Source: Candidatus Scalindua arabica | GTDB taxonomy: Bacteria > Planctomycetota > Brocadiia > Brocadiales > Scalinduaceae | Assembly (NCBI GenBank): GCA_018263435.1 | Contig: JAANXD010000025.1 | Location: forward strand, 1-36,459 | Direction of reading: 5' to 3' | Length of the DNA: 36,459 bases | Shown: one piece after another, positions 3,338 to 30,536 of the stretch | Layout of the letters: each line of letters starts with the position of its first letter | How positions within the stretch are numbered: the stretch's first letter is position 1 | Position numbers and translations under genes: made by a program | Notes under the pieces: model-generated | Databases searched by the model: none | Told to the model about the DNA's origin: nothing | What the model saw: the letters and a program-made list of their open reading frames with translations, nothing else

Positions 3338-4579
3338 TCACAAACTGTCAATTTTAAGCAGAGAATTTAACAATACATTAGCGCCTTTTTCCACATCCGT
3401 CCAATGAGTCCACTCATCCGGGGCATGACTTATCCCATTGACACTGGGCACAAATATCATGCTTGAAGGGGTGATTTTTGCAAAAAACTGTGTATCATGC
3501 CCGGCGCCGCTGGGCATTAACATATATTCAAACTCCATTTTACGAACAGTCTCTTCCAGAATGGATACTATCTCAGGGCTGCAAGGTTGAGGTGGAAGCC
3601 ATGACTTTTCTTCAAACTCAAACATTAATCTGTGTTTTCGTGCGATAGCGGACAGTACCTTGCGGCACCCTGCCGACAGGTTACGCATGATCTCTTCGTC
3701 AACATCTCTTCCTACCAGAGTAAAGTGCGCCTCTCCAGGTATTGTATGAGCAGACCCCGGTTTTAAATCCACCTGTCCAATAGTTAACCTGCTTTTATCG
3801 GAACCTTCTTCATCAATAATTCTGCTTAATTCATGGGCAAAATCTGCCAGACCCATAAATGCATCACTACGCATATCCATAGGAGCGGTGCCTGCGTGGC
3901 CGGCTTTTCCAATCAGCTTAATAAGCCATTTAAAAACACCAGAAATATTTTCTACAATTCCAATGGATTTTTCTTTATTTTCCAGAACAGGCCCCTGTTC
4001 TATGTGCAGCTCCAGAAAAGCGATTATTGAATCTCTGGAATATCTTTCGTTCAGGGCGTCTTTGGTGTTTAGCCCCAATTTCTGCATTGTCTCTTTGAGT
4101 GACTCACCTTCTACCGAACAGGCTTTTTCAATCCAGTCCGCAGTTAAATGACCTGTCAGTGACTGAGAGCCGAACATGCCTCCAAACCTTCCCTCTTCTT
4201 CGCTGGTAGCAACAATCTCAATGGGGTGTTGTACACCAATTTGCTGTTCAATAATTACTCTGACACATTCCAGTCCCGCAATGACACCCAGAGTGCCGTC
4301 AAACATGCCACCGCAAGGAGCCGCGTCTAAATGAGAGCCTATAACAATAGCGGGACCATCTGAATCCCCAAACCTCCCGATAATATTAGCCGCACCATCC
4401 ATGCATGTGGTGAGGCCCTGCTTCTTAAATTGTTCCATGAGCCAATGCCTGGCATCCATATCTGTTTGGGTCAGGCCCTGCCGGTATATGCCTTTATCCT
4501 TCTGGCAATATCCGAACTTTTTCAGATCAAAGAGGTCATTTTCTATGCGATCAAGATTTACATTATATATTTTAGTCAT
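3338..4579 (-). CDS. M20-family N-carbamoyl-L-amino-acid hydrolase / allantoate amidohydrolase-like
   Basis: Binuclear metal hydrolase of the AmaB/AllC/beta-ureidopropionase group, which removes carbamoyl groups from N-carbamoyl amino acids or related ureides. The expected ligands are present: His83 in GSHLDAAPCGG, Asp94 in MFDGTLG, the acidic run TSEEEGRFGG (Glu127-129), His192 in LHIEQGP, and the C-terminal His in GISHAPDEWT. The lid-domain motif GHAGTAPMDMR is also intact. The 413 residues match the family. It is the last gene of a same-strand set with an amidotransferase (78 bases upstream), a carbamoyltransferase and a symporter. I infer that it turns over the carbamoylated product of those enzymes. 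Family sequences alone do not separate carbamoylase from allantoate amidohydrolase. No urease or other purine-degradation gene is nearby. Confidence 0.88.
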   Translation of the reverse strand: MTKIYNVNLDRIENDLFDLKKFGYCQKDKGIYRQGLTQTDMDARHWLMEQFKKQGLTTCMDGAANIIGRFGDSDGPAIVIGSHLDAAPCGGMFDGTLGVIAGLECVRVIIEQQIGVQHPIEIVATSEEEGRFGGMFGSQSLTGHLTADWIEKACSVEGESLKETMQKLGLNTKDALNERYSRDSIIAFLELHIEQGPVLENKEKSIGIVENISGVFKWLIKLIGKAGHAGTAPMDMRSDAFMGLADFAHELSRIIDEEGSDKSRLTIGQVDLKPGSAHTIPGEAHFTLVGRDVDEEIMRNLSAGCRKVLSAIARKHRLMFEFEEKSWLPPQPCSPEIVSILEETVRKMEFEYMLMPSGAGHDTQFFAKITPSSMIFVPSVNGISHAPDEWTHWTDVEKGANVLLNSLLKIDSL

Positions 4580-4657
4580 GTTGTATATTTATAATAGTGA
4601 ATCCAGCCAGGTGAATATTCAAATATTATTTCCTCGCCGTATGCCATCACTTTTCCG

Positions 4658-6595
4658 TTACAAATTCTTGAACATAGATGTCAGGGCATGAAGCTGAATG
4701 ACATGATTTAAAATAATATCACTTCTCGTTTTAATGGCATGCTCTGTTGCATGATTGCAATCTGACAAAAATCTTGTCCATTTCTGCATGTCAATGAGTT
4801 TCAACCGGTCTATATTTTCATTTGAGACGTGTTTTTGTAGTAATGCCTGAATCGCCAACTCTTTTTTCTGGTCAGTGTGTGCGGGTGGAGCCATAAATGC
4901 AAACTTTTCTCGACGGTACAGAATTTCAGGCAGAATATTTTTCATTGCCTCCCTCAATACCCATTTTTCAACACCGTCCCGTATTCTTTGATCCGGTGGA
5001 AGCTGTATCGCTAATTCAACTACGTGGTGATCTAAAAATGCTGGCCGGGATTCGAGGGAGTTTGCCATGTCGACACGATCACCACCCCAGCTTAAAATCT
5101 GCCCCTCAAGCATAGTCTTGATCCATGTATATTGGGATTGATCGAGGGCATGGCGTCCTCTCAACATTTTGGGGTCAAAACTATCCACTATTGCGGCAAC
5201 AGGATCGTAGTTTCCCAATTCTTCTAAGGAGTCATTTGATAGCAGAGACTTGACCTTTTCCAGTGTTAAAAGCCATGGTTGTATCCATGAAGGAGTAAAT
5301 CCGATAAGGTCTTCAAAGGCAGGGTGAGAGATTTCGCTTTCTGCGAGGATAGAACCACTAAAAATCTGATTACTGTCACTGAGTTTACCTGCCATATCAC
5401 GCCCAGGCGCAGTGTCACTGTACAAAAACATATCCCGTTTGAATGCCGCATAACCGCCAAAAATCTCGTCTGATCCCTCTCCGGTGATAACGACTTTGTA
5501 ACCGTTTTGGGTCACATGCCGGCTCATAAGCATCTTGGCGACACCCAGTGTATTATAAAAGGTTCGTTCCGAGTGCCAGAGGGCTCGTTCAAAGTTTTCA
5601 CCATAAAGATCACCTGCCAGTACCTTTAAAATATCCTGATCCGCATTGCATGATTGAGCCATTTCCTTTGCTATCCCAGATTCATCATAGCGTTCATCAT
5701 CAAAGCCTATCGTAAAACCCTTGACAGGAGACTGCTGTATAGCTGATGCCATTCCTAATATGGCACAGCTGTCAATTCCACCGGAAAGATAACAAGCTAC
5801 AGGAACATCGGCTTCCAGCCTGAGTGACACAGATTCAATCAGTTTCTCGCGAACAAGCCGGATTGACTCCTCATCAGAATATCCTGCATGATGGCCAGCG
5901 TCAGGAAAGTCAGCATCCCAATATTTTTTACCCTCGATATCAAACTTACCGTTTCTCGCTTTTATAATGAGCATATGGCCCGGTTTAAGGGCGTGTATGC
6001 CTTCAAATAGTGTCTGTCCGGGAGCCATGACCTGCATTAGTTGGTGTAACATGGCTTTTTGGGAAAGTTTTCTGGGGACTTTCCCGTTTACCAGGAGGGA
6101 CTTTATTTCTGAGGCATAGGCAAACATGGACGTACCAACGTGAAAAAATAGAGGGCGTATCCCGAAACGGTCTCTTGTCAGAATCAGTTCCTCTTTTTCT
6201 TGATCATACAAAGCAAAAGCAAACTCGCCTCTAAGATGTTCTACAAAGCCGAGACCGTATTTTCTATACAGTTTTAGAGCTATCTCGCTATCGCTTTTTG
6301 TTAAGAACTTATATCCTTCGGTTACAAGATGCCCACGAATACGCTTGTAGTCATAAAACTCTCCATTGGCAGTAATGACTAAATGTAAGTTTTTATCAAC
6401 AATCGGCTGCTCTCCGGTCTCCAGGTCAATAATGGATAAGCGGGTGTGGGCCATACTAAGGCCATTTTGAGGATCAGTATAGAACCCATTCCCATCCGGT
6501 CCACGATGGTGTAGTTGACCTGCCATCTTTTCAAGAATGTCTTTATCGCGCGCAGGCTCTTTATTTAAACTCCAGAATCCGGCTATTCCACACAT
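4658..6595 (-). CDS. Asparagine-synthase-like glutamine amidotransferase (class II)
   Basis: Two-domain AsnB-type enzyme of 645 residues. The N-terminal Ntn glutaminase domain has catalytic Cys2 (MCGIAGFW), the RGPDG motif at 31-35 and the glutamine-binding NGEFYD region (77-82). The C-terminal ATP-pyrophosphatase domain has the PP-loop SGGIDS (271-276) and GEGSDEIFGGY (372-382). Such enzymes activate a carboxylate with ATP and amidate it with ammonia from glutamine. It starts 20 bases after the carbamoyltransferase stop, and the M20 hydrolase follows. This pairing is unusual for plain asparagine synthesis. It recalls clusters for N-acetylglutaminylglutamine amide, where an AsnB relative makes a terminal amide. 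The family is certain; the substrate is open. Confidence 0.93.
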   Translation of the reverse strand: MCGIAGFWSLNKEPARDKDILEKMAGQLHHRGPDGNGFYTDPQNGLSMAHTRLSIIDLETGEQPIVDKNLHLVITANGEFYDYKRIRGHLVTEGYKFLTKSDSEIALKLYRKYGLGFVEHLRGEFAFALYDQEKEELILTRDRFGIRPLFFHVGTSMFAYASEIKSLLVNGKVPRKLSQKAMLHQLMQVMAPGQTLFEGIHALKPGHMLIIKARNGKFDIEGKKYWDADFPDAGHHAGYSDEESIRLVREKLIESVSLRLEADVPVACYLSGGIDSCAILGMASAIQQSPVKGFTIGFDDERYDESGIAKEMAQSCNADQDILKVLAGDLYGENFERALWHSERTFYNTLGVAKMLMSRHVTQNGYKVVITGEGSDEIFGGYAAFKRDMFLYSDTAPGRDMAGKLSDSNQIFSGSILAESEISHPAFEDLIGFTPSWIQPWLLTLEKVKSLLSNDSLEELGNYDPVAAIVDSFDPKMLRGRHALDQSQYTWIKTMLEGQILSWGGDRVDMANSLESRPAFLDHHVVELAIQLPPDQRIRDGVEKWVLREAMKNILPEILYRREKFAFMAPPAHTDQKKELAIQALLQKHVSNENIDRLKLIDMQKWTRFLSDCNHATEHAIKTRSDIILNHVIQLHALTSMFKNL

Positions 6596-6615
6596 AAAAA
6601 ACCTTTATTAAAATA

Positions 6616-7695
6616 TTAAATTGAATTGTTTTCGACTCTATCAAAAATAGCCAGCAGTAGTGCCTGGCGGATAAAAACTGCCCCATCTGCCTGGTTGAAA
6701 TACAAGTTATGGTCAGTGTTGTCGAGATCCATTGAAAGTTCATCTCTTCTGGCAAGGGGATGCAAGATGACGGCTCCCTTTTTGAGCCCTGACTTCGAAG
6801 ACAATTTAAACTGCGAGCCCAGGTGCCGATAGCTATCTCCTAAATAGGCGATAGCGTTCATGTACAACACATCAAGCTGTCCCACTACCTGTTGAAGATC
6901 ATTTGATACATCTATTGGAATTGTGCTTTTGTTACAGAAATCCTGTACATCCTCACCGAGCGGGTCTGCCATCTCTGATACAATAGTAATCTTTTTAATA
7001 TTTTCTGAAAAAAGCAAAGATAATATCAGAAAGCTTTTTACCGATCTCATATTTCCCGGGGTACCGATGATTCCCAGTTGCAATTTCTTGCTATCTTCAA
7101 GTTTTGAGTTGGCAATTTCAGGTTTCCACTTTAATAATGCGTACCAATCGGAAAGCGCCTGAGTCGGATGCTCATCAGAACCATTGCCGCCGTTAATAAG
7201 CGGGATACGCAGATAATGGCTCAGGTCCTGAAGCGCTTTTTGTTCCGTATGCCTGACAACAACAACATCCGCATAGCTGTTAAACATCTGGCCAATATCA
7301 AGCAGTGACTCTCCCTTGGCAATACTCGTTGTAGCGGCTTCAGCTACACTCAGGGTCTTTCCACCCAGATTCAGCATTGCACTCTCAAAAGAGAGCCTTG
7401 TTCTCGTGCTCGGCTCAAAAAAGGCTGCTGCCATAATCTTGTCGTAGAGAACATCTCGAATCGGCATCTTTTTCAGTTGCAGAAATGCCGCCAGCTTGCA
7501 CAGTTCACAGAAAAGAAGCTTTCCAAACATTCTTGCTGAAAGAATGGAAGAAAAAGAAAGCTCTTTGAGAACTGACGTGTCTATTGTTGCGTGTTCTTCC
7601 AGGAGATTTTGGGGGTTCGGGTACAACCCCAACATATCTTCCTTCTTCTTTGGGTCCACTTCGTGATCAATTTTTGCAGCAGCTTTAATTACCAT
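6616..7695 (-). CDS. Aspartate/ornithine carbamoyltransferase superfamily protein, altered acceptor site
   Basis: Carbamoyl phosphate-dependent transferase of 359 residues with an N-terminal extension of about 45 residues relative to PyrB. Carbamoyl phosphate residues are kept: FEPSTRTR (Ser-Thr-Arg-Thr at 96-99), Lys127 in IAKGES, Arg148 in VVRH, and His176 in GSDEHPTQ. Arg217 in MRSVK matches E. coli PyrB Arg167. HPLARRDEL and the YF-Q-ADGAVFIRQALL end are ATCase-like. In the 240s loop, E. coli LYMTRVQ aligns with LYMNAIA, so the aspartate ligands Arg229 and Gln231 are Ala281 and Ala283. The acceptor is therefore probably not aspartate. It lies between a symporter and an AsnB-like gene, not with pyr genes. 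A divergent true PyrB is the alternative. Confidence 0.88.
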   Translation of the reverse strand: MVIKAAAKIDHEVDPKKKEDMLGLYPNPQNLLEEHATIDTSVLKELSFSSILSARMFGKLLFCELCKLAAFLQLKKMPIRDVLYDKIMAAAFFEPSTRTRLSFESAMLNLGGKTLSVAEAATTSIAKGESLLDIGQMFNSYADVVVVRHTEQKALQDLSHYLRIPLINGGNGSDEHPTQALSDWYALLKWKPEIANSKLEDSKKLQLGIIGTPGNMRSVKSFLILSLLFSENIKKITIVSEMADPLGEDVQDFCNKSTIPIDVSNDLQQVVGQLDVLYMNAIAYLGDSYRHLGSQFKLSSKSGLKKGAVILHPLARRDELSMDLDNTDHNLYFNQADGAVFIRQALLLAIFDRVENNSI

Positions 7696-7807
7696 AGTTC
7701 ACCACGCCTCCATTCTGCCCAAACTGTTTTAAGCAGAAAACAAATTGAAAAAGCACAAAGAAATAATGATATATAAATAAGCCATGAAAGAAATGAAGAT
7801 GAAATTA

Positions 7808-9229
7808 TCACTCTGCCTCCTCTCGCAAAATATTCCAATCAAATGTTGACTTTTCCCGATATGAGAAAAACAAGACGCAAATCATCGAGGCTACCGTGCC
7901 GGTCAGAGAGGCCACATACCACCCAATTGCAAAATAGGAAATAAGACCTATAACACTGCCACAGATCATCCCGGAAAGTGCTCCTCTGGCATTGGCTTTA
8001 TCCCAATAAAGACCCGTAACAATTGGCCAGATCATGGCCCCAACCATTGGTCCCGCAAAGAATAAAACAGTGGCCAGGGTTCCAATTCGCGGTAGACACA
8101 CAACCCACACTAAGACTCCAAGCAACAGAGTGATTCTCTGTGCCCATTTTCTTAAATCTAAATCTGATGCTTTTGGCCGAAAAACTTTACGATATACATC
8201 TTCGGCAAGAAGATCTGATGTTGCGGCAAGAAGGCTGTCAATACTCGAAGCAAGAGAGCAGAAGACGATGATAAAAACAGCAATGGCGCCACCTTGTCCC
8301 AAAATCTTTGCCACAACCAGAGGGCCGACCATATCAGCGCTTGGAACATTTACATTTAAAATCCCCGTGGACAATGCTATAAAACCGGCTGCAATCGGCA
8401 CCGGCAACCAGATAAAACCTGCCAGAAAGAAGGCTTTCTTGCCAACCTCCTTTCGAAACGCAAAGGCGCGGCTCCACCAGATATTATTATGAAATATTTC
8501 GCCTAAACCAAAAAGTAGATTGTTAAATACAGCCATTATTGCCGCTGGAAACAGTATATCTAATAGGGCCGGAGATTCTGACAACAGGTTCGAGTGTATC
8601 TTATCTACTGTCACAGTGTTCAGAACTGCTACACCGACAATGACAATCCCGATGAGTATTATTAAACTCTGTATAAAGTCTGTTCCTATAACAGCGTAAA
8701 GTCCTCCTCGCATGGTGTATATAACGCAAACGGCAAGAATCACTGTCATACCGTACTCATACGGTATACCTGACAAACTATTCAGCAAAATACCACCAGC
8801 CATCGACATGCTCACCAACCAGGTAAGGCTATAGAACAAACTCAACGTCAGGAAAACAGCCCAGGTTGTTTTTCCGTATCTCAAACGGATAAAGTCACCG
8901 GAAGTAAAACCGTTGGGCATGAAGCGGCGAATTCGTTCAGCCATGGGTGCAAACAGAAACAGGCCAAAGGAGGCTGTGCTATAAGCCAGCATACCCAAAA
9001 CACCCATTTGCAGAGCGAATTGAGGTGCAAGCATGGTCGTATTTGACGTGATCCATGAGGCGACGGCTGTCGCTGTACCAAACGCTAAACCAACACGGCG
9101 CCCGGCTAAAGAGTATCCTTCAAAATTCTTACTTTTCTTACCCCAGTAATTACCAAGGGCAACCCACAGTAAACTAAATACTGTTAATAATATCCAGCCA
9201 AGATTTGGTGGCAAAAAATGTTCTGTCAT
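7808..9229 (-). CDS. Sodium:solute symporter (SSS) family transporter, urea/DUR3-like flavour
   Basis: Integral membrane protein of 473 residues with about 13 hydrophobic segments. SSS-type features include YSLAGRRVG after the first helix, TAVASWITSNTTMLAPQFA, the RYG after TM3 (FIRLRYGKT), GGLYAVIGTDFIQ, and the sodium-site-like ASSIDSLLAATSDLLAEDVYRK. By eye the N-terminal half recalls DUR3 urea transporters, but the substrate cannot be read from sequence. The start codon overlaps the stop of the upstream small protein by 4 bases (ATGA). The carbamoyltransferase gene follows 112 bases later on the same strand. In this operon it could import urea, a ureide, or the carbamoylated amide the neighbours seem to handle. 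Confidence 0.88.
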   Translation of the reverse strand: MTEHFLPPNLGWILLTVFSLLWVALGNYWGKKSKNFEGYSLAGRRVGLAFGTATAVASWITSNTTMLAPQFALQMGVLGMLAYSTASFGLFLFAPMAERIRRFMPNGFTSGDFIRLRYGKTTWAVFLTLSLFYSLTWLVSMSMAGGILLNSLSGIPYEYGMTVILAVCVIYTMRGGLYAVIGTDFIQSLIILIGIVIVGVAVLNTVTVDKIHSNLLSESPALLDILFPAAIMAVFNNLLFGLGEIFHNNIWWSRAFAFRKEVGKKAFFLAGFIWLPVPIAAGFIALSTGILNVNVPSADMVGPLVVAKILGQGGAIAVFIIVFCSLASSIDSLLAATSDLLAEDVYRKVFRPKASDLDLRKWAQRITLLLGVLVWVVCLPRIGTLATVLFFAGPMVGAMIWPIVTGLYWDKANARGALSGMICGSVIGLISYFAIGWYVASLTGTVASMICVLFFSYREKSTFDWNILREEAE

Positions 9230-9675
9230 GATTGGGATACTCTTTTCTGGCCCTGGAAGTGTCCTTTGGAAATTACAAAAATTATAAAGGTGAACGCTGT
9301 GAAGCCAAGAAGGAAAAGGAAAAGAGCAGTTTTAATCGAATGATGGGCGACCTTTAACTCCTTTATCTCAGACCAGGAGTTTTGTGATAACTTGTCGTTT
9401 AGTAATCGTACGCGGTAAAAGTATCGGCCATTATTGAGGCCAGAGACAAATACGGTGTTATCCCTTCCTTTATAGATAGACAGCACATCGTTGAATGATC
9501 GGGATGAAGACTGTTGTAATTCAAATTCCATATTTTCCAGTCTACCCCATGATAGCCTGGTATATCCCGTATTTGACTCAACAAGTGGATTTCCCTGAAA
9601 AGCCAGAGCTTGGGCTTCGGTACAAACAGGTACGCTAAACAACAGTGCAAAAATGGCGACACTAAAAAGCTTCAT
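9226..9675 (-). CDS. Small secreted, membrane-anchored fibronectin-III-like protein
   Basis: No known family name is recognised. From ATG 9675 the protein has about 149 residues. It has a classic signal peptide (MKLFSVAIFALLFSVPVCTEAQA), a central beta-rich stretch of about 80 residues with FnIII-like signatures (TGYTRLSWG, FELQQSS, GRYFYRVRLL, NSWSEIKEL), and one C-terminal transmembrane helix (TALFLFLLGFTAFTFIIFVI) followed by basic residues. The layout predicts a periplasmic domain tethered to the membrane. An in-frame TTG at 9708 would add 11 residues, but the ATG gives the better signal peptide; neither has a strong ribosome site. The stop overlaps the symporter start (ATGA), so it may be an accessory subunit of that transporter. 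Confidence 0.72.
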   Translation of the reverse strand: MKLFSVAIFALLFSVPVCTEAQALAFQGNPLVESNTGYTRLSWGRLENMEFELQQSSSRSFNDVLSIYKGRDNTVFVSGLNNGRYFYRVRLLNDKLSQNSWSEIKELKVAHHSIKTALFLFLLGFTAFTFIIFVISKGHFQGQKRVSQS

Positions 9676-9845
9676 AAAATGTCCATTGTTTATACTTTTC
9701 ACTCTCAAGTAAATTGTTTTTCCTTATAAACGGTAGAGCTTATACACAATGGATACTCATGGTAACATACATGCATATAATAATGCAAGTTTTTGTGCTC
9801 AGTACAGAGTATAGTTTGAGTAAAAGTGTGAATTAAACAAAATAC

Positions 9846-20834: not shown

Positions 20835-22226
20835 ATGCATTTTAAACCAAAAAATGTAATGTGGCTTCTGTTGGTTGCAGTTGCTGCTGTTTTTCTATGC
20901 TTTGGTATGTCAGAGGCAGCAGATCCCACGGGTGACAAGACTTTTGCGTTGGACATCAGGGGTATTAACATGTCCAATAACTTTACGTGGATTTGTGTAT
21001 GTGGTTTTGTGATATGGTTCATGCAGGTAGGTTTTGCATTGTTAGGCGGTTTGTTACCAGCCAAGAATATGCTCAGCTACATGACACACTGCTTTATAGC
21101 CACTACACTCGGTGTGATTATATACTGGTTCGTTGGCTTTGGAGTGATGTTTGGTGGATTTGAATTCCTGGGGCATCATATAGGAAAAGGCAATGCCTTT
21201 ATGGGTCAGAGTGGTTTTATGCTTCTGGGTGAGGCATACGACGTTAGGACAATATTATTGTTTATATTTATGGCATGTGTAGCGACATTTATAGGCAGTA
21301 TAATTGCCGGTGCGATTGCTGAGAGGATGAAGCTTTGCTCCTATGTTCTTATGTTATTCTTCGTATATATCTTCATTTATCCTGTATATGGACATTGGGT
21401 ATGGGGAGAAGGATGGCTGTGGAACCTGCCTTACGGTGCCGGAGTAAGAGACTTTGCAGGATCAGGGGTGGTTCATGCAATTGGCGGAACTATCGGCTTC
21501 GTTGGTGCATGCTTTTTAGGACCGAGAGCTGGTAAGTATAATGAAGATGGTTCATCTAATTCCATACCAGGCCATAATGTAGGGTATATGATTCTTGGAA
21601 CAATACTCCTTGCATTCGGCTGGTTGTTTTATGATGCCGGAAGTACATTGGCAGCAGGCGACTTGAGGATGTCTATAGTAGCTGCGAATACAGCCCTTGC
21701 CGGATCAATTGGAGCTGTTACGGTTCTCTTTCTTACTTACTTGTTATCCGGCCATACCGATGTTGGTGAAGCATGTAATGGTGCTTTGGCCGGGTTTGTT
21801 GCTATTTCAGCACCATGTGCATATGTTGCACCATGGGCAGCAGTTGTAATAGGATTCCTGGGTGCCGTATTATATCTGATTTCTTTCTGGATTATTGGAA
21901 ATAAATTTAAAGTTGACGATCCACTTGGTGCATGCTCAGTTCATGGTGCCAACGGATTCTGGGGGTTGATTGCCTTGGGTATCTTCGCTGATGGTTCGTA
22001 TGGCGGAGTTTACGGTGTGATAACCGGGCATTACGGGCAGTTAGCTTCACAGCTTATTGCTGCCGTAGTTGCATTTGCTTGGGCAGGTGGAATGGCCTTT
22101 ATTTTGTTTAAGTTGATTGGCGGCAAAGGTAATAGCCATTCTAAGATGAGGGTGTCTGAGGATGCCGAGAAAGAGGGGCTTGACGTACACATTCATGGTA
22201 CGGCATGTTATCCTGAACAACCATAA
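20835..22226 (+). CDS. amtB: Amt-family ammonium channel 1 (signal peptide, altered Phe gate)
   Basis: Ammonium transporter of 463 residues with a cleavable signal (AVAAVFLCFGMSEAA) and 11 predicted helices. The conserved Asp and first pore His are in RDFAGSGVVHAIGG, and the second pore His is in CSVHGANGFWG. The periplasmic Trp is kept in GHWVWG. By hand alignment to E. coli AmtB, the gate Phe107 is Val (FMACVATF) and Phe215 is Tyr (GWLFYDAGS). The cytoplasmic tail EKEGLDVHIHGTACY keeps the Amt C-terminal signature. AAGGAGGG precedes the ATG. It stands alone between a long leader region and its own terminator. Its closest relative in the window is amt4. Confidence 0.93.
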   Translation: MHFKPKNVMWLLLVAVAAVFLCFGMSEAADPTGDKTFALDIRGINMSNNFTWICVCGFVIWFMQVGFALLGGLLPAKNMLSYMTHCFIATTLGVIIYWFVGFGVMFGGFEFLGHHIGKGNAFMGQSGFMLLGEAYDVRTILLFIFMACVATFIGSIIAGAIAERMKLCSYVLMLFFVYIFIYPVYGHWVWGEGWLWNLPYGAGVRDFAGSGVVHAIGGTIGFVGACFLGPRAGKYNEDGSSNSIPGHNVGYMILGTILLAFGWLFYDAGSTLAAGDLRMSIVAANTALAGSIGAVTVLFLTYLLSGHTDVGEACNGALAGFVAISAPCAYVAPWAAVVIGFLGAVLYLISFWIIGNKFKVDDPLGACSVHGANGFWGLIALGIFADGSYGGVYGVITGHYGQLASQLIAAVVAFAWAGGMAFILFKLIGGKGNSHSKMRVSEDAEKEGLDVHIHGTACYPEQP

Positions 22227-22326
22227 GATGCAAACGCTAGCTACGTTGCTTCAGCAGAAAACGTAGTAAAGTAATCTCTGATAATTGTTAAAATTCTGTG
22301 CCCACCGAAATAGTGGGGTAGGGCAG

Positions 22327-22370
22327 GTAGTCGTCCGTCAGTTGTGGCGGGCGACTACAACAGATTTTTT
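22327..22370 (+). terminator. Intrinsic terminator after amt1
   Basis: A 12-bp GC-rich stem, with G-T positions, is formed by 22327-22338 and 22347-22358. It is followed by six T residues (22365-22370). Confidence 0.75.
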
Positions 22371-23317
22371 GTGACTATACAGAGTCATTCCAAACCTTGA
22401 TTGTTGTTTAACACTTGAGTGTCAGAGCTTGAATATTGCGAGCTTTCCTTAGTCACTTTTCAGCATTTCTTTCTGGTTTGGTTATATACTAAACTTTTGA
22501 AATGTAAAGAGTTCCTTCCTTTTAAAGAAAACTTAAAAAACAAAAATAGTGGTAAGGTTTGTTATATTATTTTTGAGATTTAAGATACACGCACATTTAC
22601 ATACCTGAAAAGAATTAATTCATCATATAATTGCAGTGAAGTATTTGAAGATTCTAACTAATGCTGTGTGAAAAAGAGGTTTAAATTGGCTGAAATTTCA
22701 ATTTCTTGTCAATTTTCTACCTGCCATCTGTAAGTATCAATGTAGTAATGGCATAGAAGTGGCAGATTTCTGACTGGCTAATATACGCCATAATCATGAC
22801 TGTTTTGTATAATAGATTATATCGAATAATATATCGTAAGTAATTGATATAGAGTGAAGTATGGTAATTGTCTTTATAATATCTTTTATGGTATATGCAT
22901 TGCGATGTTAGTGAGTTGTAAAGATTTCTGGTAATTATTGAAATGTTTGAAATTTTCATTAATTATTCTGCGAAATCTCTTAACCTATTTCTTAAATGCA
23001 GCTTAATAATATAGACTTACAAACTAATACATTTTCGTATATTGAATCCTCTCCATACTATTGTTTTACTGCTTTACGGTATTTTTGTTGCTGGCTTTTT
23101 AAAAGTTGTCAGGTGGTGAAGAATTTATATAAAGTATGACAGCTATAACTCTATGTGCCCAACTGCACCCTCGGCTCTAGACGAACCGATCTGGCAGGCT
23201 TTCAATATGCAGAGTAGATTTAAGAGTTATTAACTGAAAGAAGTGGGGGTGTTATATATCGATAGTTTTGCAAGAAACTTATATAGTTCTTTTATTAATT
23301 TATAGGAGGTGGCTGTA
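22371..23317. other. Long AT-rich intergenic region upstream of glnK1-amt2
   Basis: About 950 bases with no supportable gene on either strand; the few short frames have neither ribosome sites nor family-like sequence. A GC-richer patch around 23155-23210 (including CAACTGCACCCTCGG) stands out from the AT-rich surroundings and could belong to a structured leader. No fold could be confirmed by eye. Confidence 0.5.
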
Positions 23318-23656
23318 ATGAAAAAAGTTGAAGCAATTATCAGGGATGAAAAATTGAGTGCTGCAAAGGAAGCTCTAAAAACCCTGGGAGTAGCTGGTAT
23401 GACGGTAACAGAGGTTAAGGGTCATGGTATACAGAAGGGTATCACGGAAGTCTACCGTGGGAGGCAGTATGCCGTAGATTTGCTGCCGAAGATTAAGGTA
23501 GAAGTGATTGTTGATGATAAAGATGTAAAGAAGGTAACTGATGCTATTTGTGAGGTCTCCAGAACCGGTAGCATTGGAGATGGAAAAATATTTGTATCCA
23601 ACATAGAAGATGTTATAAGGATTAGGACGGGAGAGACAGGTGAAAAGGCAGTTTGA
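23318..23656 (+). CDS. glnK: PII signal protein (GlnK type) paired with amt2
   Basis: PII protein of 112 residues that senses ATP/ADP and 2-oxoglutarate and plugs Amt channels. It begins [13 protein letters not shown]. The T-loop is standard: [25 protein letters not shown], with the modifiable Tyr in RGRQY. The B-loop ([11 protein letters not shown]) and the C-terminal IRIRTGE are intact. ATG 23318 is chosen because AGGAGG lies 7 bases before it; an in-frame GTG at 23309 overlaps that site. The amt2 gene starts 68 bases downstream, the classic glnK-amtB pair. Confidence 0.95.
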
Positions 23657-23724
23657 ACTATATATATTTGATGGTATGTTTTTTGAGAAAAAAAGAATGA
23701 TACATTAAAAAGGAGGTTAAACGA

Positions 23725-25059
23725 ATGAAAAAAATTGGTTATTTAACGATTTTAATATTTGTCTTCATGTTGATCAAATCATCAATGGTATGGGCAGGTG
23801 ATGGCGTTCTTGATAAAGGTGACAATGCATGGATACTTGCATCTGCCGCACTGGTACTCCTGATGACGCCCGGTCTCTGTCTGTTTTATGGGGGTTTATG
23901 TTCCGTTAGAAACATAGTTAATATGCTCATGATGTGTTTTATGTGCATCTCCATCGTTAGCGTTCAGTGGATTTTGTTTGGATATAGCTTGTCTTTTAGT
24001 GATGGGAACTGGTTCTTTGGGGATCTTTCTAAAATTGGTTTAATGGGAATAACGCCCGATTCGCTCTCTGGTTCAATATCTGAATACACATTCATGATTT
24101 TTCAGTGTATGTTTGCCGTTATCACAGCAGCTCTGGTATTGGGAGCTGTTGAGGGGCGTATGAAGTTTAGTGCAGTGTTACTATTTGTTCCACTTTTTGC
24201 AACCTTCGTATACGATCCTATCTGCCACTGGCAATGGTGTGAAACCGGCTGGATGTATAAATGGGGAGTTCTGGACTTTGCAGGTGGGCTGGTTGTACAT
24301 GTATGTTGTGGGGCCGGTGCACTTACACTTGCCATAATGCTGGGTAGCCGTAAGAGACAAAATATAACACCTCCTTGTAATCTTCCAATGGTATGTCTGG
24401 GCACAGGTTTACTATGGTTTGGATGGTTTGGTTTTAATGGTGGCAGTGCTTTGGCTGCTGATGGCAGGGCAGCCTTTGCTTTTGCAATAACAAATACTGC
24501 TGCTGCTACTGCTGCATTTGTATGGATAGTATGCGAATGGATAGGTACGGGTAAACCGACATTCCTGGGTGCACTTACAGGGGCAATTGCAGGGCTGGCG
24601 ACAATTACACCAGCCTCTGGTTTTGTAGGGCCCCTGGGTGCTATACAGATTGGTATTATGGCAGGAGTAGGCTGCTACTTTGCTGTTACAAAATTAAAAC
24701 CTCTTTTTGGTTTTGATGATGCCCTGGATGTTGTTGGAGTGCATGCTATTGGGGGAACGATCGGTACATTTGCTGCAGGACTTTATTGTACTAAGATGGT
24801 GATGGGTCCGGATGGTGTTGATGGTTTATTCATTGGATGGGGTGCAGAAGGGCTTGAACAATTGGGTAAGCAGTGTGTAGGCATTCTAGCCACTTGGGCA
24901 TTTACTGTTGCCGTATGTATTATTATTGCATTAATAGTCAAGTACACTGTTGGATTAAGGACGACTGAGGCAGAGGAAGATAAAGGACTTGATATTACAC
25001 AACATGGAGAAATTGCTTATCACTTGGAATTAGAAGCCACAAGCACACTGAGGAGATAA
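23725..25059 (+). CDS. amtB: Amt-family ammonium channel 2 (classical AmtB form)
   Basis: Ammonium channel of 444 residues. A signal peptide (MKKIGYLTILIFVFMLIKSSMVWA) is followed by 11 helices starting NAWILASAALVLLMTPGL. The pore residues are complete: Asp and His in DFAGGLVVHVCC, His in VVGVHAIGG, and gate Phe in FQCMFAVIT and GWFGFNGGS. The E. coli GALAER segment reads GAVEGR here. The C-terminal tail DKGLDITQHGEIAYH is suited to GlnK binding. AGGAGG precedes the ATG. It is co-transcribed with glnK1 and followed by a strong terminator. It is the most E. coli-like of the four and probably the regular high-affinity system. Confidence 0.95.
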   Translation: MKKIGYLTILIFVFMLIKSSMVWAGDGVLDKGDNAWILASAALVLLMTPGLCLFYGGLCSVRNIVNMLMMCFMCISIVSVQWILFGYSLSFSDGNWFFGDLSKIGLMGITPDSLSGSISEYTFMIFQCMFAVITAALVLGAVEGRMKFSAVLLFVPLFATFVYDPICHWQWCETGWMYKWGVLDFAGGLVVHVCCGAGALTLAIMLGSRKRQNITPPCNLPMVCLGTGLLWFGWFGFNGGSALAADGRAAFAFAITNTAAATAAFVWIVCEWIGTGKPTFLGALTGAIAGLATITPASGFVGPLGAIQIGIMAGVGCYFAVTKLKPLFGFDDALDVVGVHAIGGTIGTFAAGLYCTKMVMGPDGVDGLFIGWGAEGLEQLGKQCVGILATWAFTVAVCIIIALIVKYTVGLRTTEAEEDKGLDITQHGEIAYHLELEATSTLRR

Positions 25060-25143
25060 GAATGTCCTTGATTAAAGTATTTTATAAACCTTTGGTTCCT
25101 GCTTGAGTTGTTAGCGAAGGAGATGTCGAAGGTGTAGTTAAGG

Positions 25144-25187
25144 GGCGTTGACTATTCTTTTATAATAGTCAACGCCTTGCTTTTTTT
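25144..25187 (+). terminator. Strong intrinsic terminator after glnK1-amt2
   Basis: A perfect 13-bp stem (25144-25156 with 25164-25176, GGCGTTGACTATT and its complement) and a 7-base loop are followed by seven T residues (25181-25187). It lies at the meeting point of convergent operons. Confidence 0.88.
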
Positions 25188-25349
25188 AGAGACAACTGTC
25201 AAACATACCTGCCACCAAGTCATAAAAACAAAAAGAGACAGTTTGTAAGCAAGGATAATGGCGCCATTTTGACCAGTCGGTTTATGTCTCCTTTTACTTA
25301 ACGTGATCCTTACCCATTTTGCTAGCATTGTGTCTTAGTGAACTGGTGG

Positions 25350-25859
25350 CTACTTGGTATTTTGAAGAGGTTTAAACCCTCTCAGGTTATAATTGCAGAC
25401 AGGACATCTTCTTATAAAGAAATAAATGGCAAAAAGAAAAATAGCCCAAAACCCTGCGGTTAATAAAAAAAGTACAATATCTCCAATATCTAATTTATGA
25501 AGCCTCTTTGGAATGACAGATTTTTCACAATATGGGCAGAATGTTTTTTTTGGATGTTTTGTCAACGAATGGGCTGAAACTGCTTCCCTCATTTTCTTCA
25601 CAGTAATCATGCTCATAAATTTCCCATTTTCAAGCCAAATGTCTATCCTTTTGGAATTAGCAGGCTTCAACTGTTTAATTTTGTTACAAACTAGATTATA
25701 TTTTCTTGCTGTTAAGAGTTCTATACGAAATCCCTTTGGAGGTTTTAAATTGTAAAAATTGGTTATGAGAAATTGTTCCGGGTCACTGATTATCATTTTA
25801 AGCAGCTCTATGTTATTAATAAGCGTATTTTTTTTATCTATAACCATGTCTGGTATCAT
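25350..25859 (-). CDS. Zinc-ribbon membrane protein of unknown function
   Basis: Protein of 169 residues, not a recognised family. The N-terminal part (1-100) is mixed alpha/beta without motifs. The C-terminal part has a split zinc-ribbon: FCPYCEKSV, then a hydrophobic segment (DIVLFLLTAGFWAIFLFAIYFF), then RRCPVCNYNLRGF. The two CPxC knuckles thus flank one or two membrane passes on the same face. The ATG overlaps the stop of the truncated kinase frame by 4 bases (ATGA), so it was probably once coupled to that kinase. It is the last gene of the minus-strand run that starts at amt4. Confidence 0.62.
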   Translation of the reverse strand: MIPDMVIDKKNTLINNIELLKMIISDPEQFLITNFYNLKPPKGFRIELLTARKYNLVCNKIKQLKPANSKRIDIWLENGKFMSMITVKKMREAVSAHSLTKHPKKTFCPYCEKSVIPKRLHKLDIGDIVLFLLTAGFWAIFLFAIYFFIRRCPVCNYNLRGFKPLQNTK

Positions 25860-26191
25860 ACTTCCTTTAATTCTTCTATAAGTTTTTCATCTGAAGGTAT
25901 TCTGTTTGAGAGATTATGTTCAAGGAGTCCCATGACTATTTCGTCCAGTCTTTTTGAAACTAATATATTTATTTCCATAGGTGATAGCCTTGTATATGTC
26001 CATAATTTGCCAGTTAATATTTCGTACAATATTAATCCTACTGAATATAGATCGGCTCTGCCGTCAATGTTGACTTGTGATAAAACCTCTGTTTCGTCTT
26101 TATCCTCTGGGAGGTTTCTCAATAGTTTAGTCATTTTCTTTTGCTCTGGCGCCGCATAATCCCATGATATGCCCCTAATAGGTTTATATAG
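25856..26191 (-). pseudogene. Truncated Ser/Thr kinase C-lobe, remnant of a tandem duplicate
   Basis: An open frame of about 111 codons begins right after an in-frame TAA (26192-26194). It reads RGISWDYAAPEQKKM, QVNIDGRADLYSVGLILYEILTGK, and ends NRIPSDEKLIEELKEV. This matches, almost residue for residue in places, the last third of the intact kinase immediately upstream (GVTIEYASPEQKHM, QVNIDGRADLYSIGLILYQVLTGK, NRIPSAEILKEELASV). The ATP-binding lobe and catalytic loop are absent, so it cannot be a kinase. The ATG at 26134 could still give a 92-residue protein. The most likely origin is tandem duplication followed by a deletion; retention as a small regulator is possible. Confidence 0.78.
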
Positions 26192-26259
26192 TTATGGGCT
26201 TTGTGCATTTCAAATCAGTGTATGTAATTCTTTATTAGAAAATCAGCGCCTGTATTTTT

Positions 26260-27069
26260 TCACACACTTGCCAGCTCTTCTTTGAGTATTTCTGCCGATG
26301 GTATCCTGTTTGACTGATCCTCTTCAAGAAGACTCATAACTATTTTGTTTAATCTTTGTGGAATTGCAGTGTTAATCTCGATTGGTGACTGGCTTGTTTC
26401 TGACCGTATTTTACCCGTTAATACTTGATATAATATTAATCCAATTGAATATAAATCTGCTCTTCCATCAATATTCACCTGTTTTAGGACTGCCTTCTCA
26501 CCCTTTCTGTCAAATACATCTTTTAATAAGCTGTTCATATGTTTTTGCTCTGGTGATGCGTATTCTATAGTTACACCCTTTATGAGTTCACCTGATTTTA
26601 TTGAGAGTTCTAAATCGATTAATCCAATTACTCCCGTACTGGGGTCCAGTATAAGATGACCAGGCTTAATATCAGTATGGACGTATCCCTTTTTGTGTAA
26701 ATATTGTAAGGGCTCGGTAACACTTAAAATGTATTTGATTAAGCTTTCAATTTCGTGTGAATCTGGCATTCCCTTCTGCTTATAATATTCCACTATATCC
26801 TCACCTTCAAAATGTTCTAAGACAATAAAATGCTCTTTTAATACCAATTTATCGTTTTCAAACAACTCTTCCCTCCCTGCATCATGTCGTTTCGGGATTT
26901 GTGGATGAGAAAACTTCTTCAGTACATCATATTCATTGAAATAGCTATAAGTCGGTGAATACTTCAGTCCCCATTCTCTGCTTCCTGGTTCAGTCAGGAC
27001 TGCGTAATTTGCTCTATGGCCTGGCCTGTATTTGAAACTTTCAAATTGATATTTTCCTAATCTAAACAT
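26260..27069 (-). CDS. Atypical Ser/Thr protein kinase (HxDxKPGH type)
   Basis: Eukaryote-like kinase domain of 269 residues with no extra domain and no membrane segment. Lys36 (WGLKYSP) fits the ATP-binding lysine. The catalytic loop is HTDIKPGH (131-138), so Asp133 and Lys135 are kept but the usual Asn is His138. The metal-binding DFG is DLE (152-154). The activation segment ends YASPEQ (170-175). The glycine loop is not canonical. The last part contains DLYSIGLILYQVLTG and a C-terminal NRIPSAE helix. It shares all these changes, at the same residue numbers, with the kinase at 32255. It follows the variant PII gene after a 188-base gap with two hairpins. Activity is plausible but unproven. 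Confidence 0.85.
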   Translation of the reverse strand: MFRLGKYQFESFKYRPGHRANYAVLTEPGSREWGLKYSPTYSYFNEYDVLKKFSHPQIPKRHDAGREELFENDKLVLKEHFIVLEHFEGEDIVEYYKQKGMPDSHEIESLIKYILSVTEPLQYLHKKGYVHTDIKPGHLILDPSTGVIGLIDLELSIKSGELIKGVTIEYASPEQKHMNSLLKDVFDRKGEKAVLKQVNIDGRADLYSIGLILYQVLTGKIRSETSQSPIEINTAIPQRLNKIVMSLLEEDQSNRIPSAEILKEELASV

Positions 27070-27086
27070 CTAGCTTCCTTTCCGAG

Positions 27087-27160
27087 GCTATGTCATCATG
27101 TTTATGACATAGCTTATATGTTCTGCTTACCACGAAAAGCTTATAGTTTCCTAAGCTTTT
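27087..27160. repeat. Two hairpins between the PII-variant and kinase genes
   Basis: GCTATGTCAT/ATGACATAGC (27087-27096, 27104-27113) is a perfect 10-bp stem. AAAAGCTT/AAGCTTTT (27135-27142, 27153-27160) is a perfect 8-bp stem, with TGCTTAC direct repeats on either side. In the minus-strand transcript they lie just before the kinase ribosome site and could limit read-through or translation. Confidence 0.5.
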
Positions 27161-27257
27161 TGCTTACTATCATTTTATTATATTGCCTTCATTGTAAAGA
27201 TCTACGATTCTACAGAGATAAAGCTATAAAGTTCTTTTAATGAAACAAATTAATCTT

Positions 27258-27638
27258 TTACTCCTTAACGTCACCGTTAAAGCCTGTCTCGGTAGAGTCA
27301 CCTACATGTCTATCGCCAGTATGAATATGGATTGCATTATCTATAGGTGATACGTATATTCTCCCATCACCTCCCTGGTCGGTTTTAGCTGTATTTATAA
27401 TGGTTTCTATAACCTCTTCTATCTTGTTATCTGCTACAATAAATTCTAGTTCTTCTCTTTCGATAGCATCCGTCCTCTGCTCATAAACCTTTCCTCTATA
27501 TACCTGTGTAACAGTCTTCTTTTGTTCTCCATACCCGGAGGCATGTTTGGTAGTAATCCCATGATATCCTAGAGCAGATAATGCGTCCTTCAGGTCTAAA
27601 ACTTTTTCAGGCCTTAAAATAACTTTGATAAGTTTCAT
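27258..27638 (-). CDS. PII-family protein with an altered T-loop
   Basis: PII protein of 126 residues. The core is normal: MKLIKVILRPEKVLDLKDALSALG at the start, and GGDGRIYVSPIDNAIHIHTGD for the B- and C-loops. The T-loop keeps VYRGKVY, with the modifiable Tyr as residue 52. The segment that is normally VDFLPKVK is replaced by a longer polar EQRTDAIEREE, and QKGHTE becomes QKKTVTQ with one extra residue. A Gly/Asp/Glu-rich tail of about 15 residues is added. It lies just downstream of a small cytochrome c gene and upstream of an atypical kinase, not next to an amt start. A changed partner, rather than loss of effector binding, is the likely meaning. GGAGGGG precedes the ATG. Confidence 0.9.
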   Translation of the reverse strand: MKLIKVILRPEKVLDLKDALSALGYHGITTKHASGYGEQKKTVTQVYRGKVYEQRTDAIEREELEFIVADNKIEEVIETIINTAKTDQGGDGRIYVSPIDNAIHIHTGDRHVGDSTETGFNGDVKE

Positions 27639-27761
27639 AATTGATCCCCTCCGTTTATTTTAAAAAATATCTATTATCATGCTTTTAATCTCTTGTTGCC
27701 ATCACTTCCTTTCATATTTATAAAAATAAATGTGCCTCATTTTGCTTTTCATTAATATTGA

Positions 27762-28232
27762 CTAATCCTTCTTTTTATATTTTTCATGGCAATCGTCACA
27801 TGTTTGTTGTAGTTTTTCGTATTCGATGTTCAAGCTGACCATTTCTCTTGATTCAGCCGCCTCTACTACGGCAAGCGATTGGAAATGAAAAGAGGTGTCA
27901 AATATAATAAAATCCTTTGGTAATTCCACTTTTTTTTTACCTGTAAAGAGTAATGGGGAAGTATTCTTCAGCAGCATGGCGTATTTGCTTATATCATTCC
28001 AGTTTTGACTTTCGATTGATTCTGCCAGCGCGTCGTCATATTCATCAAGAGATTTCATGTGCATCCTGAATTTAGACGCACTTTCATAAATAGTATTTTC
28101 TACTATATCCGGAACCGTCATCCTTACTTCTTCTCTTCTCTTTTCGACCTTTTCTTTGCTATTTTCACGAGAAAACATAAAAAGCGGTACAAGCACAATT
28201 ATCATGATGGCGATGATCCAAAATCCTTTCAT
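27762..28232 (-). CDS. Small membrane-anchored cytochrome c, class II-like
   Basis: Protein of 156 residues. An N-terminal hydrophobic helix (MKGFWIIAIMIIVLVPLFMF) serves as signal or anchor. A mostly helical, charged region follows, and a single haem motif CDDCH lies ten residues from the C-terminus (QQTCDDCHEKYKKKD). A C-terminal CxxCH after a four-helix stretch is the cytochrome c'/c556 pattern. Such proteins carry electrons or bind NO in the periplasm. It sits between amt3 and the PII variant on the same strand. No Shine-Dalgarno is obvious. Confidence 0.8.
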   Translation of the reverse strand: MKGFWIIAIMIIVLVPLFMFSRENSKEKVEKRREEVRMTVPDIVENTIYESASKFRMHMKSLDEYDDALAESIESQNWNDISKYAMLLKNTSPLLFTGKKKVELPKDFIIFDTSFHFQSLAVVEAAESREMVSLNIEYEKLQQTCDDCHEKYKKKD

Positions 28233-28550
28233 TTCAATTGCTTAACCTTTCTACTAATTTAAATCCAAATATATTGACTGGCATTTGGATATTCTCTTTA
28301 AATTTAAATGTTGTTAATAAATAGTTTTTGTCTTGCCGGCCAAGGCGCATTATTATAATTAACTATGTAAAAAATTCAAAGTTTATATTGAAAGTGTATT
28401 AGTATTATGTTCTATACTTGAGGCTGGAATACAAAGTTCTGATATGGTGTAGTCGGGAATTATATAGTATAGGCAGAACAAGAAGCGGAAAAGCGTGCAT
28501 TAGATAAGTTGATATGGAAAATTTACTCAAGCAAAGCAGTAAAGGAAATA
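28233..28550. other. Intergenic region between amt3 and the cytochrome gene
   Basis: 318 bases without a supportable gene. No terminator follows amt3. A short plus-strand frame near 28470-28550 reads like a charged helix but has a stop just before it and no start, so it is not called. Confidence 0.5.
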
Positions 28551-29933: not shown

Positions 29934-30024
29934 TACTTCTGGTATTTGAACACTAAAAAGTCGCAAAATATCTTTAGAATTGGGTTTGCATAGTTATTGC
30001 TACGCTGCATGTACATGGGTAGAT

Positions 30025-30077
30025 AATCAGCGGCCAAACGGTTGAGTAAAATTTTATACAACCTCTGGCCGCTGATT
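30025..30077. repeat. Large nested palindrome between glnK2 and amt3
   Basis: Outer arms AATCAGCGGCCA (30025-30036) and TGGCCGCTGATT (30066-30077) are perfect. Inside are GGTTG/CAACC (30040-30044, 30058-30062) and a central TAAAATTTTA. No T-run follows on the minus strand, so it is more likely an mRNA-stabilising or regulatory structure than a terminator. Confidence 0.65.
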
Positions 30078-30106
30078 GCTTATTGCGAGCTACAAAATAT
30101 AGAGTT

Positions 30107-30445
30107 TCAAATAGCAGTATCACCTTGTTCTGCTGTTCTTATCCTATATACGTTTAAAAGCTCATAAACGAATATTTTCCCGTCTCCAATACTACCTGTT
30201 TGGCCTTCCGAGATAATAGTTTGAACCACATTATCGCAGACTTCGTCAGCGACAACCAGTTCTACCTTTACCTTCGGAAGCAGGTCGACTTTGTACCGCT
30301 TCCCCCTCCATACCTCACTGACTCCCTTCTGATTGCCATGCCCCTTTATTTCTGTGACAGACATACCACCATAGCCCTTCTCTGTCAGGGCATCTTTTAC
30401 GATGTCAAATTTTTCAGGACGAATAATAGCTTCTATCTTTTTCAT
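30107..30445 (-). CDS. glnK: PII signal protein (GlnK type) downstream of amt4
   Basis: PII protein of 112 residues, starting MKKIEAIIRPEKFDIVKDAL. The T-loop is KGHGNQKGVSEVWRGKRYKVDLLPK: Trp replaces the first T-loop Tyr, but the modifiable Tyr in GKRYKVD is kept. [12 protein letters not shown] and IRTAEQGD complete the fold. The start at 30445 is set by AGGAGGAG about 7 bases upstream; a longer frame to 30484 has no ribosome site. It lies 91 bases after amt4 on the same strand, the reverse of the glnK1-amt2 order. Confidence 0.95.
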   Translation of the reverse strand: MKKIEAIIRPEKFDIVKDALTEKGYGGMSVTEIKGHGNQKGVSEVWRGKRYKVDLLPKVKVELVVADEVCDNVVQTIISEGQTGSIGDGKIFVYELLNVYRIRTAEQGDTAI

Positions 30446-30536
30446 AAATAAACTCCTCCTTTGACAATAAACCTGTGTTCTCAAGAAATAATAAAAAGTA
30501 AAAGATTTCTACGTTAGACTTAAAATGTATCCGAAT

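Follow-up and report, generated by a model that had tools for sequence, protein, structure and literature searches.

The five-gene block and its transport genes

In the window, the whole stretch of 36,459 nucleotides from Candidatus Scalindua arabica that was analysed, a block of five open reading frames occupies positions 3338–9708 of the minus strand, with families called by profile search (Table 1). An earlier note on this DNA had described five same-strand genes ending at 9675; number and strand stand, while the end has moved, since 9675 is an internal ATG (residue 12) and the TTG start gives 9708. Its five family calls were borne out by profile matches, and in the case of the FnIII-like protein by the predicted fold. 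Promoter and terminator scans gave results near chance level. Four Amt and two P-II genes are located further along the window.

Table 1. Genes of the operon, with strand, product length and basis of the assignment.
Product	Position	Strand	Length	Basis
M20-family N-carbamoyl-L-amino-acid amidohydrolase	3338..4579	-	413 aa	TIGR01879, NF006771
AsnB-type glutamine-dependent amidotransferase	4658..6595	-	645 aa	TIGR01536, Cys2 and SGG.DS motifs
Transcarbamylase, new clade	6616..7695	-	359 aa	below PyrB cut-off, ATCase fold
Sodium:solute symporter (SSS)	7808..9229	-	473 aa	PF00474
Signal-anchored FnIII-like ectodomain with one C-terminal transmembrane helix	9226..9708	-	160 aa from TTG	predicted fold, Foldseek

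The symporter matches PF00474 (SSF) with 112 bits (gathering score 22.8) and is 67–72% identical across all 35 window-type loci; the proline and pantothenate equivalogs were not reached, and no substrate-specific equivalog was matched. The FnIII gene, which overlaps the start of the symporter gene, gave no sequence-family match; the predicted fold of its product (pLDDT 84) matches Fn3 structures in Foldseek (best 3mpc, 'Fn3-like protein', E 5e-5), with a long C-terminal helix at residues 125–159 following the Fn3-like domain. Among 20 gammaproteobacterial regions the gene is present exactly where the symporter is (both in 16, neither in 4). In small-genome cyanobacteria the symporter is preceded by a 72-aa ORF which consists of the transmembrane tail only, and the FnIII-like ectodomain is found on the partner in the window and in alpha-, beta- and many gammaproteobacteria. 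Some SSS transporters are known with a small partner gene, and the present pair resembles them in that the gene of a small single-span protein directly precedes and overlaps that of the symporter; it differs in the FnIII-like ectodomain of the partner and in the missing family match. We propose that the FnIII-like protein is a partner subunit of the symporter.

The transcarbamylase, the amidotransferase and the hydrolases

With TIGR00670 the window transferase scores 181.7 bits, below the curated aspartate-carbamoyltransferase cut-off of 236.95, compared to 366.7 bits for the true PyrB of the same genome, which, like ArgF, is encoded elsewhere. A separate PyrB above the cut-off accompanies the operon-type transferase in all 14 genomes tested, with ArgF as a third transcarbamylase. 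The earlier note had set clustering with PyrB against its own reading; in the tree the operon transferases instead group apart as a clade of 101 sequences (support 0.97). The SxRT and HPxQ carbamoyl-phosphate motifs, by which membership of the transcarbamylase superfamily is judged, are invariant in all 101 members, as are K84, R105, H134, Q137 and R167. In the canonical enzyme, the beta-carboxylate of aspartate is held by R229 and Q231, the alpha-carboxylate by R167 and K84 (PMC4581275; PMC7878868). R229 and Q231 are present in 15 of 15 PyrB compared, whereas every clade member (101/101) carries alanine or serine at R229, alanine at Q231 and HPLA in place of HPLP. In the window enzyme R229, Q231 and P268 are all replaced by alanine with the carbamoyl-phosphate residues intact, such that the 'altered acceptor site' of the earlier note is real. 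A 240s-loop signature, Y-M/I-N-A/S-I-A-x-x-G-D/E in the rows listed, and the motif HPLAR are common to all three branches of the clade.

The predicted fold of the transferase matches ATCase (E 1.7e-18), with pLDDT < 50 at residues 91–129, which leaves confidence in the modelled active site weak. Fold, carbamoyl-phosphate residues, R167 and K84 are thus shared with PyrB, in contrast to the RxQxER 240s loop and the HPLP motif of PyrB, which have become an NA/SIAxxGD-type loop and HPLA, in an enzyme that belongs to a separate clade and coexists with the genome's own PyrB. Residues and tree together rule out both a true PyrB and an OTCase. Another parallel is ureidoglycine transcarbamylase (UGTCase), which likewise belongs to the ATCase branch, has an altered acceptor site and is interpreted as a pseudo-ATCase; UGTCase, however, has H(T/S)LP with Ser258 and Lys261 (PMC4581275), where the present clade shows HPLA (101/101), with Ala or Ser/Ala in the corresponding positions. 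Because the carbamoyl-phosphate and alpha-carboxylate sites are kept and the beta-carboxylate site is lost, the acceptor is proposed to be L-glutamine or another neutral L-amino acid.

The AsnB-type enzyme reaches 428 bits with TIGR01536 (cut-off 267.1), a label that is uninformative on the substrate, because the same model gives a clear NAGGN amidotransferase 441 bits. The NAGGN amidotransferase model TIGR03104 yields 304.7 bits for the window protein and 300.9 and 304.4 bits for the other two branches, all below its cut-off of 570.1. The Cys2 glutaminase and SGG.DS synthetase motifs are kept in 77 operon-linked homologues. Compared with 18 other AsnB-like proteins, including E. coli AsnB, the operon-linked proteins are monophyletic (support 1.0), and their distances track those of the transferases (r 0.91, 13 genomes). 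As the linked clade is separate and co-evolves with the transferase, the evidence speaks against an enzyme that would make free asparagine only.

The M20 enzyme passes the hydantoinase/carbamoylase cut-offs of TIGR01879 (346 versus 204 bits) and NF006771 (505 versus 399), in common with the family that includes allantoate amidohydrolase, N-carbamoyl-L-amino acid hydrolase and ErtE; it differs from these in gene context and in passing no substrate-specific equivalog cut-off. The best substrate-named equivalog is ErtE N-carbamyl-L-glutamate amidohydrolase (NF058540, 363 bits, cut-off 520), and among substrate-named models this N-carbamyl-L-glutamate-specific one comes closest to the hydrolase in each of the three branches. 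The gene is linked to the operon in 27 of 35 window-type and 20 of 20 gammaproteobacterial loci, varies in position among carriers and was not found in Nitrosomonas marina; it is a looser, catabolic partner of the set, a refinement of the earlier note. Beside it stands a second hydrolase, an isochorismatase-like cysteine amidohydrolase in the full gammaproteobacterial set and a DUF1028 protein in small-genome cyanobacteria; the former, not visible from the window, is a further refinement of the earlier note. Both are absent from window-type loci, and the genome of the window organism holds only a weak partial isochorismatase match (32%, L138).

Distribution and the published producer of CGA

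The order SSS-transferase-AsnB is kept in 35 of 35 unrelated window-type loci. These come from sphingomonads, marine Nitrosomonas and a cyanobacterial MAG, and the majority belong to taxa with marine names. The order recurs in 21 of 368 other gammaproteobacteria and, as SSS-transferase-AsnB-M20, in 16 of 385 other cyanobacteria, the carriers there having small genomes. The search for the same gene order elsewhere, suggested earlier, thus found a unit kept across phyla, and for this reason the grouping is not ascribed to chance. The transferase is found in none of 97 relatives of the window genome, and plasmid records contain no orthologue, only ordinary PyrB-like genes. With Rfam, glutamine-II aptamers were detected close to the operon in three cyanobacterial loci; they lie past the hydrolase genes on the other strand and were therefore rejected as operon leaders; no Rfam glutamine riboswitch was found in the window or in eight further loci.

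N-carbamoyl-glutamine amide (CGA), described in 1991, is an osmotic solute (PMC1224877) reported from one organism only, Ectothiorhodospira marismortui (PMC3857566; PMC1224877), in which it is a minor solute (PMC3857566). As far as the literature search showed, no genes for CGA have been described, in agreement with the earlier note, which knew of no such gene set. The assembly of E. marismortui DSM 4180 is reported with 35 contigs, 2,624,954 bp and 68.2% GC (PMC8877833), and the genome referred to here is the one whose assembly matches this type strain (35 contigs, 2.6 Mb, ~68% GC, pufLM). This genome carries hydrolase-amidase-transferase-amidotransferase, so that the suggested look at known producers turned out positive, and the operon-type transferase is its only transcarbamylase without an assigned role; it also encodes a distinct NAGGN amidotransferase, clearly identified as such at 985 bits. 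The transferase was found in 41 of 47 genomes of the order to which this genome belongs, an order fixed by a match to Ectothiorhodospira sp. BSL-9, as well as in the genome matching Ectothiorhodosinus mongolicus, an organism without betaine and ectoine synthesis (PMC7824335). The Ectothiorhodospira set is devoid of symporter and FnIII genes, the window set of a second hydrolase, and the transferases of the two branches are ~45% identical; on these differences the two sets are regarded as variants.

A putative route to CGA and its alternatives

We consider it quite probable that the operon serves CGA-type synthesis by carbamoylation and alpha-amidation of glutamine, recapture of the solute and recycling by the M20 enzyme. 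The transcarbamylase would transfer the carbamoyl group of carbamoyl phosphate to the alpha-amino group of L-glutamine, whereupon the AsnB-type enzyme, by analogy with AsnO of the NAGGN pathway, would turn the free alpha-carboxylate into the amide with ATP and glutamine, such that both charges of glutamine would be masked. The Na+ symporter, together with its single-span, FnIII-bearing partner, may take the solute up again; for breakdown, the M20 enzyme would take off the carbamoyl group, and the isochorismatase-like enzyme of gammaproteobacteria or the DUF1028 protein of small-genome cyanobacteria probably performs the other hydrolytic step. The product would have an osmotic role, and the window organism may make the same compound. 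The carbamoylated amino-acid amide envisaged earlier is thus supported by the separate transferase clade, the conserved set and the match to the CGA producer, with glutamine as the putative acceptor through the link of CGA to one organism, whose genome was matched by size, contig number and GC. The NAGGN pathway, comprising the amidotransferase AsnO/PA3459, Ngg/PA3460 and the peptidase PA3461, offers the nearest precedent: a glutamine-derived solute with an acyl-capped amino end, a carboxyl group amidated by an AsnB relative, and a hydrolase in the operon (PMC8070244). It proceeds, however, by acetylation and dipeptide formation, whereas here one amino acid would receive a carbamoyl group, and no Ngg acetyltransferase/synthetase gene turned up in the scan of window genes adjoining the operon.

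The same chemistry might act on another neutral amino acid in the window, such as asparagine, with CGA confined to the Ectothiorhodospira branch. The changes to A/S 229, A 231 and A 268 denote 'no beta-carboxylate' and do not specify glutamine, the sequence divergence between the transferase branches is considerable at ~45% identity, and no product has been reported for any other carrier; yet the identical 240s-loop signature and HPLAR in three branches suggest one substrate, and the closest substrate-named hydrolase model is specific for N-carbamyl-L-glutamate in each, which renders this alternative unlikely. Less probable still is a nitrogen reserve or an imported nitrogen source in place of an osmolyte. 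Such a role could be read from the four nitrogens of CGA, from the Amt and P-II genes of the window, and from ureC and the glutamine-II riboswitch near some cyanobacterial loci, the latter on the opposite strand and not a leader, but the carriers known by name are mostly marine or halophilic, published CGA is an osmotic solute (PMC1224877), and the ATP-costly double capping of glutamine would be an odd nitrogen store.

Carbamoylation and amidation or lactam formation could also tailor a secondary metabolite or peptide, with the hydrolase for self-protection, given that lasso-peptide cyclases and beta-lactam synthetases are AsnB relatives and antibiotic clusters contain carbamoyltransferases (PMC4581275). 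We regard this as very improbable: in none of the lineages examined does a conserved scaffold-making gene accompany the set, and a Na+ symporter with catabolic hydrolases better suits a small cytosolic solute. That the genes are ordinary neighbours sharing no pathway, with a second copy of pyrB next to an asparagine synthase and a carbamoylase that has nothing to do with either, is exactly what automated labels would convey, with TIGR01536 above its cut-off; it is hardly credible and already disfavoured by conservation and phylogeny, as the gene order is kept across phyla, the aspartate motif is missing from all 101 transferases, and the asparagine-synthase label does not discriminate.

That the operon serves CGA biosynthesis, recapture and recycling throughout its carriers, with an L-glutamine transcarbamylase as a new specificity, is an extension to which we lean only slightly. 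If it holds, CGA would be a widespread marine solute and no longer the curiosity of one purple bacterium, with makers that include small-genome cyanobacteria resembling marine picocyanobacteria, marine ammonia oxidisers, sphingomonads and most Ectothiorhodospirales. The two biosynthetic genes named here are candidates for the long-missing CGA genes, and CGA becomes a candidate solute for Ectothiorhodosinus. The transferases form a new transcarbamylase clade, whose members automated annotation would call weak PyrB, and genes for 'aspartate carbamoyltransferase' and 'asparagine synthase' that are likely misannotated in the carriers would be corrected. If marine cyanobacteria make CGA, it would constitute an unrecognised nitrogen-rich part of the dissolved organic matter of the ocean.

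The operon and its transcarbamylase

All five same-strand genes described in the earlier note are present at the place claimed, on the minus strand. The FnIII-like assignment of the first was confirmed by structure prediction and Foldseek; sequence libraries give no such call.

Genes of the operon in the window, in order of transcription
Gene	Position	Strand	Remarks
FnIII-like protein	9226-9708	minus	first; structure prediction and Foldseek
SSS symporter	7808-9229	minus	second; 4-base overlap with FnIII-like gene
Transcarbamylase	6616-7695	minus	third
AsnB-type amidotransferase	4658-6595	minus	fourth
M20 N-carbamoyl-amino-acid hydrolase	3338-4579	minus	fifth, last

The gene dxr adjoins the operon both here (944-2092) and in a low-GC cyanobacterial genome (L160:2513-3742), probably by chance. 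Elsewhere in the window, a stretch of about 11 kb (20835-32102) is unusually dense in ammonium-sensing genes: four encode Amt-type ammonium transporters and two are of the P-II type, and two protein-kinase-like genes are found among and beside these.

The window transferase scores 182 bits, below the curated aspartate-carbamoyltransferase cut-off of 237. In PyrB, the β-carboxylate of aspartate is held by R229 and Q231, and the α-carboxylate by R167 with K84 (PMC4581275, PMC7878868). The carbamoyl phosphate residues STRTR, R105, H134 and Q137 are invariant in 101 of 101 operon transferases, as are K84 and R167, whereas R229 is replaced by Ala or Ser, Q231 by Ala, and HPLP by HPLA throughout, which bears out the altered acceptor site noted earlier; R229 and Q231 are present in all 15 PyrB sequences. 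Since R167 and K84 are kept and R229 and Q231 lost, the enzyme should, judged by these residues, accept an L-amino acid by its α-carboxylate but not the aspartate side chain. The acceptor motifs match none of the transcarbamylase motifs compared from a review (PMC4581275). The transferases form a monophyletic clade (support 0.974), the linked AsnB-like enzymes form one clade (support 1.0) apart from other AsnB-like proteins, and the distances of the latter follow those of the former (r 0.91, n = 13 genomes). At one locus, L134 in genome G478, the match is confined to roughly the final two thirds of the transferase (111-355), so that truncation, a frameshift or misassembly of the gene is possible there.

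The window genome separately encodes a PyrB with all aspartate motifs, over the cut-off, an ArgF adjacent to argD, and two further AsnB-like proteins. A true PyrB accompanies the operon transferase in 14 of 14 genomes searched, and ArgF, at the threshold used, in 13 of these.

Distribution and gene content

The operon transferase is absent from all 97 relatives of the window genome and occurs in only one of 392 other genomes of the phylum; the operon was therefore probably acquired horizontally. The scan for it covered 84,980 species genomes and yielded 35 window-type loci with 62-68% identity. Tellingly named carriers are mostly marine: Nitrosomonas marina, N. aestuarii, Croceicoccus, Novosphingobium marinum, aquimarinum, mangrovi, indicum and profundi, Erythrobacter, Altererythrobacter, Hirschia and one Oscillatoriales MAG. 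The SSS-transferase-AsnB order is identical in 35/35 loci, and M20 lies nearby, on either strand, in 27; in Hirschia it is located away from the operon, and none was found in the whole N. marina genome. The genes for synthesis and uptake thus form the core, with M20 as a frequent catabolic companion. FnIII precedes the core in 30/35 loci (tblastn; some contigs are cut), and no second-hydrolase partner for M20 was found near by.

Among Gammaproteobacteria, a transferase with 42-47% identity occurs in 21 of 368 other genomes sampled. The 20 regions examined at length contain M20, a second hydrolase, transferase and, where the contig permits, AsnB. The second hydrolase, an amidohydrolase with the isochorismatase fold, has biuret hydrolase, RutB and N-carbamoylsarcosine amidohydrolase among its relatives. 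In 16 regions FnIII lies ahead of M20 and the symporter between second hydrolase and transferase; the other four lack both, so that FnIII and symporter are jointly present or absent in 20/20.

The transferase occurs in 16 of 385 other cyanobacterial genomes, and in one of 384 others in Alphaproteobacteria. Fifteen cyanobacterial regions (L158-L172) carry SSS-transferase-AsnB-M20 in one run, one of them without a symporter near by. The carrier genomes, 1.7-3.7 Mb and many a single contig, suggest marine picocyanobacteria. A DUF1028 (PF06267) protein directly follows M20 in 15/15, which suggests an amidohydrolase role in solute breakdown. Three regions (L163, L165, L172) have a glutamine-II riboswitch aptamer close to the operon, on the opposite strand. 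Of the FnIII protein, these small-genome cyanobacteria keep only the membrane tail ahead of the symporter: its C-terminal transmembrane stretch (LGA.V......I.RG) recurs as a short ORF (L165:11221-11439, and upstream of the L159 symporter), the FnIII domain being gone. Together with the gammaproteobacterial co-occurrence, this retention points to a subunit relation, the tail being a candidate new SSS small subunit.

Probable link to N-carbamoyl-glutamine amide

The only published producer of N-carbamoyl-glutamine amide (CGA), the solute considered in the earlier note, is Ectothiorhodospira marismortui (PMC1224877). Genome G424, which matches strain DSM 4180 by assembly statistics (35 contigs in both; 2.6 Mb versus 2,624,954 bp; ~68% versus 68.2% GC), carries the operon transferase; apart from this, all of its transcarbamylases are PyrB or ArgF. 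G478, of the same order, matches Ectothiorhodospira sp. BSL-9 (3,550,080 bp contig), and 41 of 47 genomes of this order hold the transferase. Photosynthetic reaction-centre genes are found in two operon-carrying gammaproteobacterial genomes, G424 and G208. The latter (1,995,095 bp, 55% GC) is similar to Ectothiorhodosinus mongolicus (1,990,961 bp, 55.6%). That species has neither betaine nor ectoine synthesis, and a genome survey put forward sucrose, CGA or N-acetylglutaminylglutamine amide (NAGGN) as its possible solutes, the genes not being named (PMC7824335). AsnB relatives of 590 aa occur in gammaproteobacterial genomes at L227, L220, L212 and L210; that at L227, the one scored, is a NAGGN amidotransferase (985 bits). 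Because it is encoded separately in the E. marismortui-matching genome, the two systems are distinct, and these bacteria may hold both.

Proposed pathway

The transferase would form N-carbamoyl-glutamine from glutamine and carbamoyl phosphate, and AsnB would convert it to CGA by ATP- and glutamine-dependent amidation of the α-carboxylate. The route would share the logic of NAGGN, both charges of a glutamine derivative being masked. Breakdown would require one deamidation and one decarbamoylation, M20 being paired with different second hydrolases by lineage, and the symporter with its single-span FnIII-ectodomain partner would recapture leaked solute. Because the window transferase is 55% different from the Ectothiorhodospira branch and gene content differs, the window branch might make a different amide of this type rather than CGA.
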